DNA from: a virus
IMG/VR virus record: IMGVR_UViG_3300028025_001167
Span: 1 to 31,812 of that record
DNA: 31,812 bases
Direction: 5' to 3' (one strand)
The translations under genes and the position numbers were made by a program. The notes beneath the pieces are model-generated. The model was not told the origin of the DNA. It did no database searches and was given only the letters and a program-made list of their open reading frames with translations. Below, piece after piece: positions 1 to 5,175 of the stretch (positions within the stretch are counted from its first letter, which is position 1; each line of letters begins with the position of its first letter).

Positions 1-347
1 GAGAATATTGATGTAGCCTCCCCCGTACTCGAAAAGCTAAATCTAGATGTATGACACAACAAGCCTATCTTGGTTGGAAGAAAGGGGTAATCAGTAAGGT
101 GTGTCTTTAAGTTTCATTGGGGCGCAAGGCGGCTACCCGATAGGTGATATAGGTAATTTTTTGTTTAGCAGAAAGCTGATTAGAGTGTCTGCCACAAGGA
201 GAGCCTACTTCTAGGCTTATTCTGGTTTATCTATGCGGCGTAGTCACTACGATGGCACACCAGCTTCCAAGCGGTCATGACAGGGGTTTTCAGGATTGCC
301 CTCTGTCGAGTCGGGTAGCATAACCGACACTCCTTGGTGACACTGTA
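1..347. other. Non-coding, hairpin-rich stretch
   Basis: I see no convincing gene in this stretch on either strand. The right part is rich in inverted repeats: AGCCTA-CTTC-TAGGCT at 202-217; an imperfect hairpin at 222-263 with CGTAG-TCA-CTACG at its tip; GACAG+GGG at 279-286 pairing with CCC+CTGTC at 299-307; and GTCGG at 310-314 pairing with CCGAC at 324-328. GAGTGTC at 183-189 is the exact complement of GACACTC at 326-332 and could close a multibranched fold around the first three hairpins; it competes with the fourth. This could be a structured RNA, a packaging or replication site, or regulatory DNA. If the genome is circular, the ATG that ends the window would read into bases 1-52 as an 18-codon ORF. 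Confidence 0.4.
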
Positions 348-572
348 CTAGAAGATCATTCCGTTATCAAGTGCTTTCAGAATCTTTCTTGCCTCCTGTT
401 TAGCACCCTTCTTGTAAACCTTGATTTTCCTTGGATTGGTGACGTTGCGCTTAGTTATTGTGTCTTGCGCTATCTTCTCTGCCAAACCCTTTTTCCAAGT
501 CTCTAGTGCTTGAGCCATCTCTTGCTTCTTGCGCTGATTAGCTCGTTCCTCTGGAGTCAATTCAATAGCCAT
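348..572 (-). CDS. Small basic, charged helical protein of unknown function
   Basis: This 74-residue protein is rich in Lys, Arg, Glu and Gln (starts MAIELTPEERANQRKK, ends ALDNGMIF), has no cysteines or membrane segment, and looks mostly helical. I do not recognise a family. It runs opposite to the neighbouring late genes and has its own promoter at 670-698. Its ATG follows directly on a T7 tract at the end of a predicted pseudoknot/terminator, and a possible Shine-Dalgarno AAAGGG (581-586, minus strand) sits inside the 3' arm of that structure. Expression would therefore be low unless the leader is opened or read through. A small nucleic-acid-binding or host-takeover protein is possible, but this is inference. 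Confidence 0.7.
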   Translation of the reverse strand: MAIELTPEERANQRKKQEMAQALETWKKGLAEKIAQDTITKRNVTNPRKIKVYKKGAKQEARKILKALDNGMIF

Positions 573-663
573 AAAAAAAGCCCTTTAGGAGTAGTACAGT
601 CGCACCCCCAAGAATCCTCAGGGCTGTACCACTTCTAAAAGACTTTCCTTGGTGCGATCAAGT
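573..663 (-). ncRNA. Pseudoknot/terminator leader RNA (left copy)
   Basis: On the minus strand, helix A pairs TCGCACC (657-651) with GGTGCGA (606-600). Helix B pairs 644-624 with 599-579, giving 21 positions with three G-U pairs and one central A-C mismatch. The order A5'-B5'-A3'-B3' is that of an H-type pseudoknot, with A3' directly abutting B3'. The loop after B5' starts CCCT and ends GGG, which could add a small third helix. Seven Ts (579-573) follow helix B, as in an intrinsic terminator, and the ATG of the 74-residue gene comes next. With the promoter at 670-698 the transcript would be about 90 nt. It could be a stand-alone small RNA, an attenuator, or simply a terminator whose helix A is accidental. 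Confidence 0.55.
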
Positions 664-669
664 GCCTCC

Positions 670-698
670 ACTATACAAGATTCCTTTTCTGATGTAAA
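670..698 (-). promoter_or_regulatory. Sigma70-type promoter for the left leader RNA
   Basis: On the minus strand, TTTACA (698-693) and TATAGT (675-670) are separated by exactly 17 bases. This is a good match to a host sigma70 promoter (5 of 6 at each box) and is expected to start transcription near 663, six bases before helix A of the pseudoknot leader. An inverted repeat TGATGT/ACATCA overlaps the -35 region and could bind a regulator. Confidence 0.65.
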
Positions 699-720
699 GT
701 GAGTACCAACATCAAGACGC

Positions 721-926
721 ATGGAGATTGGCTACTGTCATGACGGTAGTTCCCACAAACAGTCTCCAGCCGTGTTGGTGGAAAAGGGAAATCGCCAAGG
801 GACGCTTTGGCTATGTTGCATCGTGAGGGCTTTGCGGCTGATACAACCCACCCACTCTCCTGTCAGAGGGAAGCACCCTGCTGACGATTGGGACACCAAC
901 AACCTTCTTCCCACTTTGGACAAAAG
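721..926. other. Hairpin-rich leader before the terminase genes
   Basis: Two opposing ORFs of 60-70 codons cross this stretch, but neither looks like a protein. Instead there are strong inverted repeats. A near-perfect 18-bp palindrome at 732-749 centres on GTCATGAC and is enclosed by GGAGA (723-727)/TCTCC (763-767). GCCAA (794-798) pairs with TTGGC (807-811). GTCAG+AGGG (862-870) pairs with CCCT+CTGAC (876-885) across a five-base loop. This could be an untranslated leader RNA of the late operon, a packaging (pac/cos) region next to terS, or an operator region. The 8-bp palindrome GTCATGAC also occurs at 274-281. Confidence 0.35.
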
Positions 927-1379
927 ATGAATGCTATAGACGCTTTACCTGAACAACTGAAAAAGCCAAGAGGTCGTCCCCCGCAGGGACAAGACAACTT
1001 GGCAAAGCCAAGGGGTCGTCCTCCAAAGGCTGTCAAAGTGGCTATCCCTAAGCCAATGACTATGGCTCGTTATGCCGATAGTCCTCCTCCCATGCTTCCC
1101 AAGACTGAACTACAGAGAGTCAAAGAACTCAAAGAGTTGTTGATAAACAGTGCTGGTTCCAATGTTGTCCACAAGGCAGTTGAGATTGCCATGAATGACG
1201 AACACCCCGCACAGATGGCGGCAATCAAACTCTGTATGGACAGAATGCTCCCTGTCTCCTTGTTTGAGAAAGAAGGAAAACAGCGATCGGCAGTTAACAT
1301 AACTATTTCAGGTATTGGCGGTGTCTCCATTGGTGACAAGACAATTGACGCTGAAGACATAGAAAGCAAAGATGTCTGA
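927..1379 (+). CDS. Terminase small subunit-like protein with two AT-hooks
   Basis: The 150-residue product lies directly upstream of terL and overlaps it by 8 bases, the usual place for the DNA-recognition subunit of the packaging motor. Residues about 11-35 contain two KPRGRPP motifs, which are AT-hook minor-groove-binding elements. The middle (LKELLINSAGSNVVHKAVEI) and the following NDEHPAQMAAIKLCMDRMLP are helical, with a pattern I associate with small terminase-like proteins of environmental podoviruses. The tail is beta-prone and acidic. I chose ATG 927 because residues from there are coherent; an upstream ATG at 888 adds 13 low-quality residues. The ribosome site is weak (GGA at 918-920). 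Confidence 0.7.
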   Translation: MNAIDALPEQLKKPRGRPPQGQDNLAKPRGRPPKAVKVAIPKPMTMARYADSPPPMLPKTELQRVKELKELLINSAGSNVVHKAVEIAMNDEHPAQMAAIKLCMDRMLPVSLFEKEGKQRSAVNITISGIGGVSIGDKTIDAEDIESKDV

Positions 1380-2631
1380 TCTGAACTTCAGTCTCCTCCC
1401 TTGGCAACAAGAAGTCTTTGCTGACAAAACAAGGTTCAAAGTCATCGCTGCTGGTCGGCGCTGTGGCAAGTCCCGCCTATCTGCCGTTACCCTCCTGATT
1501 GAAGGACTGCAATGTAGTGCAGGGTCGGCAGTGCTTTATGTTGCACCGACCAATGGTCAGGCAAGGCAGATTATTTGGGACGTTTTGATGGAATTGGGTA
1601 GGGATGTTATCCAAGCCAGTCACATCAATAACATGGATATCACCCTGATAAATGGAGCCAAAATCTATGTTAGAGGTGCAGATCGCCCAGATACTTTGCG
1701 AGGAGTGTCACTCACCTATGCTGTGCTTGACGAGGTTGCCGACATCAAACCAGAAGCATGGGAACAGGTTATTCGAGCTTCGTTGTCAGACAAAAAGGGT
1801 CGGGCAATGTTCATCGGAACTCCCAAGGGTCGTAACTTTTTCTATGACGTATTTAAACTCGGAAACTCAGAAGAAGACCCAGACTGGAAATCTTGGCACT
1901 TCACAACCAAAGATAACCCCCTGATTGACCCAACTGAGATCGAATCTGCCAAGAAAACCCTATCTTCGTTTGCTTTCAAGCAGGAATACCTAGCCAGTTT
2001 TGACAATGCTGGTTCTGACGTTTTCAAGGAAGAATGGCTGAAATACGGGAAAGAGCCTGAGTATGGAAGCTACTACATTGCCTGTGACTTAGCGGGATTT
2101 GAGGAGGTTGCCAAGCAAGCAGCTAACTCCAAGAAGCGGCTAGACCAGACTGCCATTGCTGTGGTCAAGGTCACTGATGATGGCAAATGGTTCGTCAAAG
2201 AGATCGTTTTTGGGCGGTGGGACATCAGGGAGACTGCTGCTACCATTCTGCTCAAGATGCGGGAATACCGCCCACTTTCTGTAGGAATTGAGCGTGGAGC
2301 GTTAAAAAACGCAGTTTTGCCGTATTTGAGTGACTTGATGCGGAAGAATAATGTATATTCACACATAGTTGACTTGACCCACGGCAATCGCAAAAAAGCC
2401 GACCGTATCATTTGGTCACTTCAAGGACGGTTTGAGCATGGGCGTATTGTGCTGAACTCCGAGGAAGATTGGGATGAATTCAAAGATCAATTGCTTCTCT
2501 TTCCATCTCAAGGAGTACATGACGATCTGCCAGACGCATTGAGTTATATAGATCAACTTGCAGTAACAAGTTATTTTGAAGATGATGCAGATGATGAATG
2601 GGAGCCATTAGATGTTATCGCTGGTATCTGA
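1372..2631 (+). CDS. terL: Terminase large subunit (packaging ATPase/nuclease)
   Basis: The 419-residue protein is the DNA-translocating ATPase and headful/cos nuclease that docks on the portal. The ATPase domain shows Walker A AAGRRCGKS at residues 26-34, Walker B YAVLDE at 116-121, and the coupling motif GTPKG at 149-153. The C-terminal half is an RNase H-like nuclease domain: IACDLAG supplies an early acidic residue, SVGIERG the middle one and DDLPDAL the last. It overlaps terS at its start by 8 bases. The HNH gene starts 20 bases before its end, so the last codons (ending PLDVIAGI) share DNA with that gene and may have been altered by its arrival. Confidence 0.95.
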   Translation: MSDLNFSLLPWQQEVFADKTRFKVIAAGRRCGKSRLSAVTLLIEGLQCSAGSAVLYVAPTNGQARQIIWDVLMELGRDVIQASHINNMDITLINGAKIYVRGADRPDTLRGVSLTYAVLDEVADIKPEAWEQVIRASLSDKKGRAMFIGTPKGRNFFYDVFKLGNSEEDPDWKSWHFTTKDNPLIDPTEIESAKKTLSSFAFKQEYLASFDNAGSDVFKEEWLKYGKEPEYGSYYIACDLAGFEEVAKQAANSKKRLDQTAIAVVKVTDDGKWFVKEIVFGRWDIRETAATILLKMREYRPLSVGIERGALKNAVLPYLSDLMRKNNVYSHIVDLTHGNRKKADRIIWSLQGRFEHGRIVLNSEEDWDEFKDQLLLFPSQGVHDDLPDALSYIDQLAVTSYFEDDADDEWEPLDVIAGI

Positions 2632-3085
2632 AGCAACTAAAACTTGCCCAAAATGCGAGCAGGATAAGTATTTTTCAGAATTTGGAAAAGATAAATCTAA
2701 GAAAAGTGGCTTGTCTTCTTATTGTAAAAAATGCGCCTCAAATAATAGATTACAAAACTACAAGTCATCTACAGGTAAACACAAAGAAAAATTAAAAGAA
2801 TACTATAAAAACAATAAAGATAAGTCTCGTTCTTACAGCTTAAAAAACTTGTATGGCCTATCTGTAGAACAATACAACGAGATGAAGTTTATGCAAGGAG
2901 GCTCATGCAAAATTTGTAAAACGCATGAAAGCAATCTAAAACGTAAACTTTTTGTAGATCACTGTCATACAACAGGTTCTGTTAGAGGCCTTCTTTGCCA
3001 GTCCTGCAATACAATGATTGGAAATGCAAAAGACAATATTCTTGTCTTGCAAGCAGCAATAAATTACTTATCGAGTAAATCTTGA
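2612..3085 (+). CDS. HNH endonuclease, endonuclease VII-like (free-standing homing type)
   Basis: The 157-residue protein matches the recombination endonuclease VII family. An N-terminal CPKC...CKKC zinc pair is followed by a basic linker, then CKIC, the catalytic DHCHTTGSVRGLLC block, and CNTMIGNAKD. It is inserted between terL and portal, where many phages carry mobile free-standing HNH genes rather than a Holliday-junction resolvase. The DNA is clearly more A+T-rich than its neighbours, which supports separate ancestry. Its ATG lies 20 bases inside terL, and its stop is 14 bases before the portal ATG. It is related to the HNH protein at 31239-31694 (shared QYNEM, VDHCH, RGLLC, CN). Its target site is unknown. 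Confidence 0.9.
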   Translation: MLSLVSEATKTCPKCEQDKYFSEFGKDKSKKSGLSSYCKKCASNNRLQNYKSSTGKHKEKLKEYYKNNKDKSRSYSLKNLYGLSVEQYNEMKFMQGGSCKICKTHESNLKRKLFVDHCHTTGSVRGLLCQSCNTMIGNAKDNILVLQAAINYLSSKS

Positions 3086-3099
3086 TAGTTGGAGAACAC

Positions 3100-5175
3100 A
3101 TGGCAACAGACAAACAAGTGAAATTAGAGCAAAACGAGTTCTACGAGCCGACAGAGGCTGACAAAGAACTAACTGGATTTGTTGTTGACCATTGCCAACG
3201 GTGGCGTGATTACCGTGACGTTAACTTCCTCCCCGATTGGCTAGAGTACGAACGCATCTTCCGTGGTCAATGGGCGGCAGAAGACAAGACTCGTGAATCT
3301 GAGCGTAGCCGCATCGTCACCCCCGCTACCCAACAAGCCGTAGAAACCCGCCATGCTGAGATCATGGAAGCTATCTTCGGTCAAGGCGACTTCTTCGACA
3401 TTGAAGACAATATCCAAGACATTGGCGGTAATCCCATTGATGTTGAGCTAATCAAAGCTCAACTGATGGAAGACTTCAAGAAAGACAAAATCAGAAAATC
3501 TATCGACCAGATCGAGTTGATGGCTGAAATCTATGGAACAGGCATTGGCGAGATCATCGTCAAGACTGAAAAGGAATACATCCCCGCCACACAAGCAATC
3601 CCTGGACAAGTCGGGCAAGCAGCTATTGGTGTGATTGAGCGTGACCGTATTGGCGTGAAGATCATGCCTATCAATCCCAAGAACTTCTTGTTTGACCCTA
3701 ACGGTACATCCATTGATGACTGTATGGGCGTGGCTATTGAGAAGTATGTCTCAATTCACAAGATTGTGGCTGGTATCGAGAAGGGCATCTATCGCAAGGT
3801 AGACATCACCCCTACCTATGAAGACACTGATCTTGAGCCTACCCAAGAAGTCTCTCAGTACCAAGACGAGAAGGTGCTTTTGCTGACCTACTATGGTCTT
3901 GTGCCTCGTGAGTACTTGAACAATATGCAGGAAAACAAGGACATTGTTGAGTTGTTTCCTGAGAATTCAGCGGCTGAAGACTACACCGACATGGTGGAAG
4001 CCATTGTGGTCATTGCCAACGATGGTTTGCTTCTGAAAGCTGAAGAAAACCCATACATGATGAAAGATCGTCCTGTATTGAGTTACCAAGATGACACGAT
4101 TCCTAACCGTTTGTTGGGTCGTGGAACTGTGGAAAAAGCCTTCAATATGCAAAAAGCTATTGATGCCCAGACCCGCAGCCACTTGGATTCACTGGCGCTG
4201 ACTACTAGCCCCATGATTGCGATGGATGCAACACGTTTGCCTCGTGGTGCTAAGTTTGAAGTCAAGCCGGGCAAGGCGATGCTCACCAATGGCGCACCTT
4301 CTGAGATCATTTTCCCCTTTAAGTTTGGTGAAACCAGCCTGAACAACCTCAATACTGCCAAGGAATTTGAGCGTATGTTGTTGCAAGCTACTGGAACACT
4401 GGACTCCAATGGCATGGTCAGTAGTTCAGCTAGGGATGGTGGTGGTATGTCTACAGCAGTAGCCACTATCATCAAGAAATACAAGCGGACACTGGTCAAT
4501 TTCCAAGAAGACTTCCTGATTCCGTTCATCAAGAAGGCTGCTTTCCGCTATATGCAGTTTGACCCAGAGCGTTACCCCTCTGTGGACATGAACTTTGTGC
4601 CAACTGCCACCTTGGGCATCATTGCTCGTGAGTACGAACAACAGCAATTCATCGGTTTGTTGCAGACTCTTGGCCCAAATACCCCTGTTCTGCCATTGAT
4701 TCTCAAAGGAATCATGCAAAACTCTAGTCTGACCAACAGATTTGAGTTGATTGCGGCTTTGGATGAGATGATGAAGCCAAATCCTGAACAACAACAGATG
4801 GAACAGGCTCAACAACAGTTGGCATTGCAAGCGGCACAGGCTCAGATTGCAGTTAACACGACTCAAGCTGAACAAAATCGTGCAGAAGCTACAAAACTGG
4901 CTGTGGAAGCTCAATTAATGCCTCAAGAAGTGCAAGCCAAGAACATGGCGGCGGTTACAAAGAATCTTCCTAATGAAGATGAAGCCGCATCTCGTGAGTT
5001 TGACAAGAGGGTTAAGATTGCTGAGTTGATGTTGAAGGAAGCAGACATCAAAAACAAGTCTAAGATTGTTGAATTGCAGATGGCAGAGAAAAACAACAAA
5101 GTTGCTGGCATGGAACAAGACTTTCTTGAACAACTCTCAAAACAATTGAGTTCTGCTCAGACTGGAACTGAATAA
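3100..5175 (+). CDS. Portal protein
   Basis: The 691-residue protein follows terL, and its length and composition fit the portal ring of P22-like podoviruses, through which DNA enters and leaves the head. Residues WRDYRDVNFLPDWLEYERIF and SRIVTPATQQAVETRHAEIME near the N-terminus resemble the portal stem/clip regions of this group. The C-terminal 130 residues are Gln/Ala/Lys-rich and predicted coiled coil, like a barrel. I start at ATG 3100, which has GGAGA six bases upstream; a TTG at 3082 overlaps the HNH stop and is less likely. It ends in a TAATG overlap with the fibre gene. Confidence 0.88.
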   Translation: MATDKQVKLEQNEFYEPTEADKELTGFVVDHCQRWRDYRDVNFLPDWLEYERIFRGQWAAEDKTRESERSRIVTPATQQAVETRHAEIMEAIFGQGDFFDIEDNIQDIGGNPIDVELIKAQLMEDFKKDKIRKSIDQIELMAEIYGTGIGEIIVKTEKEYIPATQAIPGQVGQAAIGVIERDRIGVKIMPINPKNFLFDPNGTSIDDCMGVAIEKYVSIHKIVAGIEKGIYRKVDITPTYEDTDLEPTQEVSQYQDEKVLLLTYYGLVPREYLNNMQENKDIVELFPENSAAEDYTDMVEAIVVIANDGLLLKAEENPYMMKDRPVLSYQDDTIPNRLLGRGTVEKAFNMQKAIDAQTRSHLDSLALTTSPMIAMDATRLPRGAKFEVKPGKAMLTNGAPSEIIFPFKFGETSLNNLNTAKEFERMLLQATGTLDSNGMVSSSARDGGGMSTAVATIIKKYKRTLVNFQEDFLIPFIKKAAFRYMQFDPERYPSVDMNFVPTATLGIIAREYEQQQFIGLLQTLGPNTPVLPLILKGIMQNSSLTNRFELIAALDEMMKPNPEQQQMEQAQQQLALQAAQAQIAVNTTQAEQNRAEATKLAVEAQLMPQEVQAKNMAAVTKNLPNEDEAASREFDKRVKIAELMLKEADIKNKSKIVELQMAEKNNKVAGMEQDFLEQLSKQLSSAQTGTE

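Follow-up and report, generated by a model that had tools for sequence, protein, structure and literature searches.

The window analysed here, the whole 31,812-base IMG/VR virus record IMGVR_UViG_3300028025_001167, encodes a structured leader RNA of ~92 nt on its minus strand (573–664, counted from the predicted +1 through the U-run). Comparison with relatives indicates that this RNA belongs to a genuine, uncatalogued phage RNA family, and the evidence for its pseudoknot is very strong. Computation showed the fold (pseudoknot included), the conservation of the element, how exactly it fits between promoter and ATG, and how it is linked to the downstream gene. The original prediction of a candidate new RNA family is strongly supported, with a covarying pseudoknot that lies between a promoter and a gene and no Rfam match. 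Genes for a TerS-like protein, TerL, and a portal protein occupy positions 888–5175 on the plus strand, and the promoter–RNA–gene unit is divergent to them. In minus-strand order, the unit consists of the promoter (698–670), ~6 nt, the RNA (~664–573), and, without a gap, the ATG of a gene for a 74-aa protein.

Fold and covariation of the leader RNA

Folded alone, the leader RNA has a minimum free energy of −38.9 kcal/mol (z −5.8). None of 200 shuffled sequences was equally stable, and the opposite strand of the element folds less well. The small hairpin P1 (648–662; stem 662–659 with 651–648) was absent from the original prediction; it presents a 7-nt loop (658–652), and its stem is longer in most relatives than in the window. 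Helix A pairs UCGCAC in this loop (5' strand, 652–657) with GUGCGA (3' strand, 600–605), which forms a bulge between P3 and P2. Helix A had been described with seven base pairs (TCGCACC/GGTGCGA). That sequence is present and six of the pairs (657–652 with 605–600) are backed by comparison, but the seventh C is better placed as the closing pair of P1. The claimed 21-bp helix, P2, was borne out, with a 5' strand at 645–624, a 3' strand at 599–578, and one mismatch. The cap hairpin P3 (606–623) pairs 623–617 with 612–606. A U7 tract like that of an intrinsic terminator (579–573) directly precedes the ATG at 572, as had been stated. The claim that a Shine–Dalgarno sequence lies inside the helix holds in part: a weak AAAGGG (586–581) in the 3' strand of P2 is predicted to be fully paired, but it is not kept in all relatives. 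Since the P3–P2 bulge has almost no spare nucleotide and six of the seven P1-loop nucleotides are paired, the predicted topology is a hairpin-loop-to-bulge kissing pseudoknot and not a simple H-type pseudoknot. The mention of "both copies" in the original prediction did not stand, as the covariance model gave one copy in the window together with its own reverse complement. This second match, the reverse complement of the same helix, was rejected as a copy.

Viral contigs were searched with TerL, the 74-aa protein, and the sequence pattern, yielding ~170 loci. A first alignment of 48 distinct elements, with the structure defined as P1, P2, P3, and helix A, had 97.5% of its cells paired; helix A was paired in all 48, and five of its six pairs were changed on both sides. 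Most of the 48 had been found through the 5' strand of P2, and elements found through the HNH endonuclease described below, by protein alone, were therefore added. The second alignment comprised 47 diverse elements and was built with a covariance model that lacked helix A; no sequence was chosen on that helix. Compensatory changes were identified in 29 of 40 pairs (P1, 6/6 in alignment A3; helix A, 5/6; P2, 13/21; P3, 5/7), counts that can be inflated by relatedness of the sequences. The observed covariation was reached by none of 500 shuffles, and it collapsed when the pairing partners were slid against each other. Helix A was paired in 100% of cells in all 47 relatives, and sliding its partner strand by 1–3 columns lowered pairing to 59% or less. 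The P1 loop takes eight forms (UCGCAC, UUGCGC, UCGCGC, UCGCGU, UCUAGC, UCGUGC, UCUCGC, and UCGUG+U), and the bulge matches each. It is difficult to account for eight matched loop forms over several promoter backgrounds if helix A does not exist. The original prediction had proposed examining whether relatives keep helix A while changing its sequence; all 47 do, and random loss was not seen. The unpaired positions of the RNA are mostly variable, which favors a mechanical role over a ligand pocket and makes a classical riboswitch appear unlikely.

We compared the RNA with public databases. There was no Rfam match in window positions 1–3000 even at an E value of 5, none at the gathering score across the whole window, and nothing credible at loose thresholds for the window and the leaders of its relatives. 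The window's leader region had no nucleotide match among 50,697 phage records. Searches of bacterial genomes with the HNH profile returned no relative, and 35 exact-pattern matches for the RNA were found there, none of which passed the covariance model. Two weak covariance-model matches upstream of terS (L049 and L054; E 0.007 and 0.08) were rejected because they coincide with an unrelated inverted-repeat element. In the window, a long inverted-repeat element (CAAGACGCATGGAGATTG...CAGTCTCCAGCCGTGTTGG) lies between the promoter and terS (705–780, plus strand). It is present or absent among relatives, occurs twice in L052, and looks like a small mobile or structured element.

Promoter fit, downstream genes, and distribution

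The predicted sigma70-like promoter is present on the minus strand (670–698), with a −35 TTTACA at 698–693, a 17-nt spacer, and a −10 TATAGT at 675–670. A 10/12 match to consensus is by itself at chance level (4 promoter-like sites found versus 4.4 expected); a TTTACA/TATAGT promoter occurs at the matching place in 64 TerL relatives. A sigma70-like consensus scan of the same strand revealed no further promoter near the element besides this upstream one, and none adjoining or inside the helix that would give hairpin-free transcripts. In all 47 diverse relatives the −10 hexamer ends 6–8 nt before P1, the leader RNA is 90–96 nt long, and a U-run of 5–7 is followed by 0–2 nt and then the ATG. This fit holds for the TTTACA/TATAGT promoters of the window group, for a TTGACA-type promoter with GGGGTAAACCC in its spacer, and for several others, and it means that the leader has no sequence beyond the element. 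P2 is closed by GCC/GGC in nearly all relatives and U5–7 comes next in all 47, so that the GC-rich hairpin with a directly adjoining U-run of an intrinsic terminator is present. In a nested folding model, the probability of being unpaired is ~0 from −16 to −4 relative to the AUG, and the translation start region is accordingly predicted to be sequestered by an RNA helix. Dyad-like sequences occur in the promoter spacers, for example in L072 and L086 (GAATCAGATTC; GGGGTAAACCC). They are conserved within promoter groups and might serve as repressor operators.

The window's downstream gene (348–572, minus strand) encodes a 74-aa basic protein without a known family. It is under purifying selection (dN/dS of 0.13 to its nearest relative), and the family has 13 invariant positions. 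No match to the protein was found in Pfam, PHROG, or PADLOC, and AlphaFold predicts two helices only, which is too simple a structure to search for by fold. About half of the relatives carry downstream, in its place, the gene for a ~150-aa HNH endonuclease (151 aa; PF01844, E 6.5e-11), a replacement that supplies the main context missing from the original prediction. The HNH protein carries an HNH domain only, without RuvC or PLMP, and its nearest solved chain is 5h0m. Both proteins are strongly basic. The 74-aa protein was considered as a truncated HNH N-terminus, which was rejected, as there was no profile similarity (probability 1.2%). When loci were collected by protein alone, the RNA was found upstream in 20 of 20 74-aa loci and in 50 of 51 full-length HNH loci plus three more divergent ones, although many of these contigs are near-duplicates and the counts are not independent. 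L226 is the sole full-length HNH relative without the 5' RNA; it sits fused in an operon, and no 3' RNA was seen there either. A near-identical RNA precedes the 74-aa gene in the window and the HNH gene in L004 and L005, which indicates that the RNA works with both kinds of gene.

The HNH gene has another covarying RNA at its end; ~230 nt long and unrelated to the leader, it starts at or a few bases after the stop codon. It was aligned (alignment A5) from L031 (2660–2887, minus strand), L223 (1906–2147), L225 (1876–2109), and 11 more loci. Compensatory changes occur in 15 of 39 predicted pairs, and ~80 bases are invariant. This RNA was seen only with this HNH family and had no match in Rfam. 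Its first hairpin has a loop, GGCAGUC, that pairs with GACUGCC ~200 nt farther downstream. The leader-C pattern also gave four matches away from HNH loci; these fall in coding regions and were rejected as chance. A conserved noncoding region, here called leader B, also lies behind the 74-aa gene in relatives; its start occupies 1–347 of the window (minus strand), beginning at 347, and the record ends inside it. In leader B, the hairpin loop GCUACCC has its complement, GGGUAGC, ~170 nt downstream, an arrangement that matches the one in the RNA following the HNH gene.

Of the 64 TerL relatives whose site could be resolved, 17 carry the cassette of RNA and gene. In the other 47 the same promoter leads directly into a different conserved noncoding region (41 type A and 6 type D). 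No RNA was found in TerL relatives without the gene, and the RNA was never met without the gene. Because it is present or absent among close TerL relatives, the cassette is accessory and modular. A packaging RNA like that of phi29 was considered for its kissing loop and the nearby terminase genes and judged unlikely, as only 17 of 64 closely related TerL phages carry the element; it is not a packaging RNA of general importance. The type A region is a conserved noncoding stretch of ~700 nt ("ACGGGGGCATCACCCACCCCTCTATGCGG...") before the first early ORF, for example on the minus strand of L044, L062, and L049, and type D was identified at six loci (L034, L036, L037, L063, L074, and L007). The site behind the promoter is possibly a locus of interchangeable large RNAs. 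A sigma54-like motif (TGGCAYG-N4-nTGCA, with GG and GC 10 nt apart) lies ~40–60 nt before the first early ORF and is conserved in L044, L018, L051, L052, L072, and others; this suggests that the early genes have a promoter of their own. In two relatives, L034 (3311–3418) and L037 (2250–2357), the same intergenic region holds a tRNA-like gene (Rfam tRNA, 44 bits, 108 nt).

Proposed mechanism and alternatives

A regulatory role of the leader RNA is likely. The original prediction had left the choice between a regulated leader and an independent RNA of ~90 nt, and of these the regulated leader is favored since RNA and gene are found together and the RNA occupies exactly the interval from +1 to the ATG. 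The leading proposal, to which we give an even chance, is that the element is a cis-acting attenuator of a mobile accessory gene, combining a terminator with sequestration of the ribosome site. We infer the start site, termination, repression, and role of the pseudoknot in this proposal. A small accessory transcription unit would have the element as its complete 5' untranslated leader, with transcription starting at P1. P1, P3, and the kissing helix A could form before RNA polymerase leaves the element, and P2 would then zip, setting a GC-closed 21-bp helix directly before U7. P2 would release the polymerase at the U-run by intrinsic termination and, in read-through transcripts, would bury the whole region upstream of the AUG. 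The HNH or 74-aa gene would be off by default and made only if both termination and P2 are bypassed, and the pseudoknot would tune this bypass through kinetics or a bound factor. By established rules, a GC-closed hairpin followed by U7 is an intrinsic terminator. Repression at two levels is proposed because of this hairpin and because the start codon abuts it without a free ribosome site. Prefix folding of one sequence indicates that helix A can form before the 3' strand of P2 appears, which suggests, for this sequence, that it could slow or favor P2 closure. In that same folding of one sequence, no conserved antiterminator or similar alternative pairing was recognized. Since a simple hairpin would be enough for both termination and sequestration, the strict retention of helix A suggests something beyond them, and conservation beyond the needs of a mere terminator makes a further role of the leader RNA likely. 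The conserved structured RNA downstream of the gene must be transcribed as well, which implies that termination is incomplete unless another promoter exists.

Other readings place the function of the RNA elsewhere. The terminated ~92-nt RNA might be a stable trans-acting small RNA, such as an antidote that restrains the downstream protein as in type III toxin–antitoxin systems, with read-through setting the RNA:protein ratio. Its compact form, structured throughout between +1 and the U-run and bounded by a 5' hairpin and a 3' terminator, would suit that role, as would the type III order of promoter, pseudoknot RNA, terminator, and gene and the strongly basic nature of both proteins. However, there is a single unit without tandem repeats, the protein is an HNH nuclease or a two-helix protein and not a ToxN-like ribonuclease, a near-identical RNA serves two unrelated proteins, and the RNA is never found apart from its gene. 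We therefore regard a trans-acting RNA as unlikely. Processive antitermination is a very doubtful reading. The HK022 put site and the EAR element are processive-antitermination RNAs, and the leader could similarly let RNA polymerase read the downstream structured region and operon, being a pseudoknot, the first RNA of the transcript, and ahead of a structured noncoding region and an early-type operon. It nevertheless keeps a U-run at the ATG strictly, a feature lacking in put- and EAR-type elements, and relatives lacking the cassette do without it when reading a region of this kind from the same promoter.

Another reading is that the leader, together with the HNH protein and the ~230-nt RNA, belongs to a single RNA–protein mobile element whose nuclease uses one RNA or both as a cofactor (guide, scaffold, or recognition). 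The leader would then be half of a new mobile phage element, an HNH gene framed by a kissing-loop RNA and a ~230-nt RNA that serve nuclease targeting or mobility in addition to expression, with the 74-aa gene and leader B as a sister element. Covarying RNAs do frame the HNH ORF at its start and stop, the full-length HNH locus that lacks the 5' RNA also shows no 3' RNA, the cassette comes and goes among close relatives, and HEARO/omegaRNA in the 5' UTR of an HNH nuclease sets a precedent (PMC9755519). Against this stand the lack of RuvC, PLMP, a HEARO match in Rfam, and room for a 5' guide, and the occurrence of the same 5' RNA with a non-nuclease gene, which leave it rather improbable. The remaining alternative, an ordinary intrinsic terminator with a fortuitous 7-nt complementarity, agrees with the GC-closed hairpin and U7. 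It has a negligible probability given helix A in 47 of 47 relatives, eight loop sequences each matched by the bulge, and the loss of pairing when the register slides, and as an account of the pseudoknot it is already refuted by covariation.

Relation to known systems and significance

The attenuator reading is closest in kind to the leader hairpins that sequester ribosome-binding sites of T4-type phage homing endonucleases (I-TevI, I-TevII, I-TevIII, segB, and mobE; PMC2988022). In both, a helix in a phage leader covers the start of translation of a mobile endonuclease gene, here by prediction and with the HNH gene carried by about half of the relatives. The T4 hairpins, however, are not known to form a single conserved RNA family; they lack both a pseudoknot and a U-run at the ATG, and a late promoter adjoining the gene bypasses them. 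No such promoter was found inside this element, and the window itself carries a non-nuclease ORF. HEARO/omegaRNA of IscB is likewise a structured RNA, conserved and located in the 5' UTR of an HNH nuclease gene (PMC9755519). In contrast to it, the RNA and protein described here are much smaller and have no Rfam match, RuvC, PLMP, or 5' guide. The Rfam HEARO model did not match in the window or in 12 relatives, and a 5' guide segment has no room, with P1 starting 6–8 nt after the −10 box in all 47.

Kinship to type III toxin–antitoxin RNAs or known riboswitches, as suggested in the original prediction, did not hold up, given a single unit, no ToxN-type gene, and no Rfam match. The type III RNAs (ToxI, TenpI, and CptI) share the order of promoter, pseudoknot RNA, terminator, and gene, but here the pseudoknot lies within the terminator helix, no tandem repeats of the pseudoknot unit occur in the window, and the search for a ToxN/TenpN/CptN-type ribonuclease downstream found HNH (PF01844) or the orphan two-helix protein instead. 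Riboswitch and attenuator leaders with intrinsic terminators also have a structured 5' leader whose last helix is the terminator before the gene, but the present RNA has no known aptamer, mostly variable unpaired positions, and no recognized alternative pairing.

The leader adds a new, well-supported phage RNA family outside Rfam, whose terminator incorporates a pseudoknot and takes up the entire leader. The family is a tractable model for studying what a phage gains by preserving a tertiary contact within its terminator hairpin. The locus is also one at which structured RNAs are exchanged between phages along with small genes, one of them coding for an HNH nuclease.
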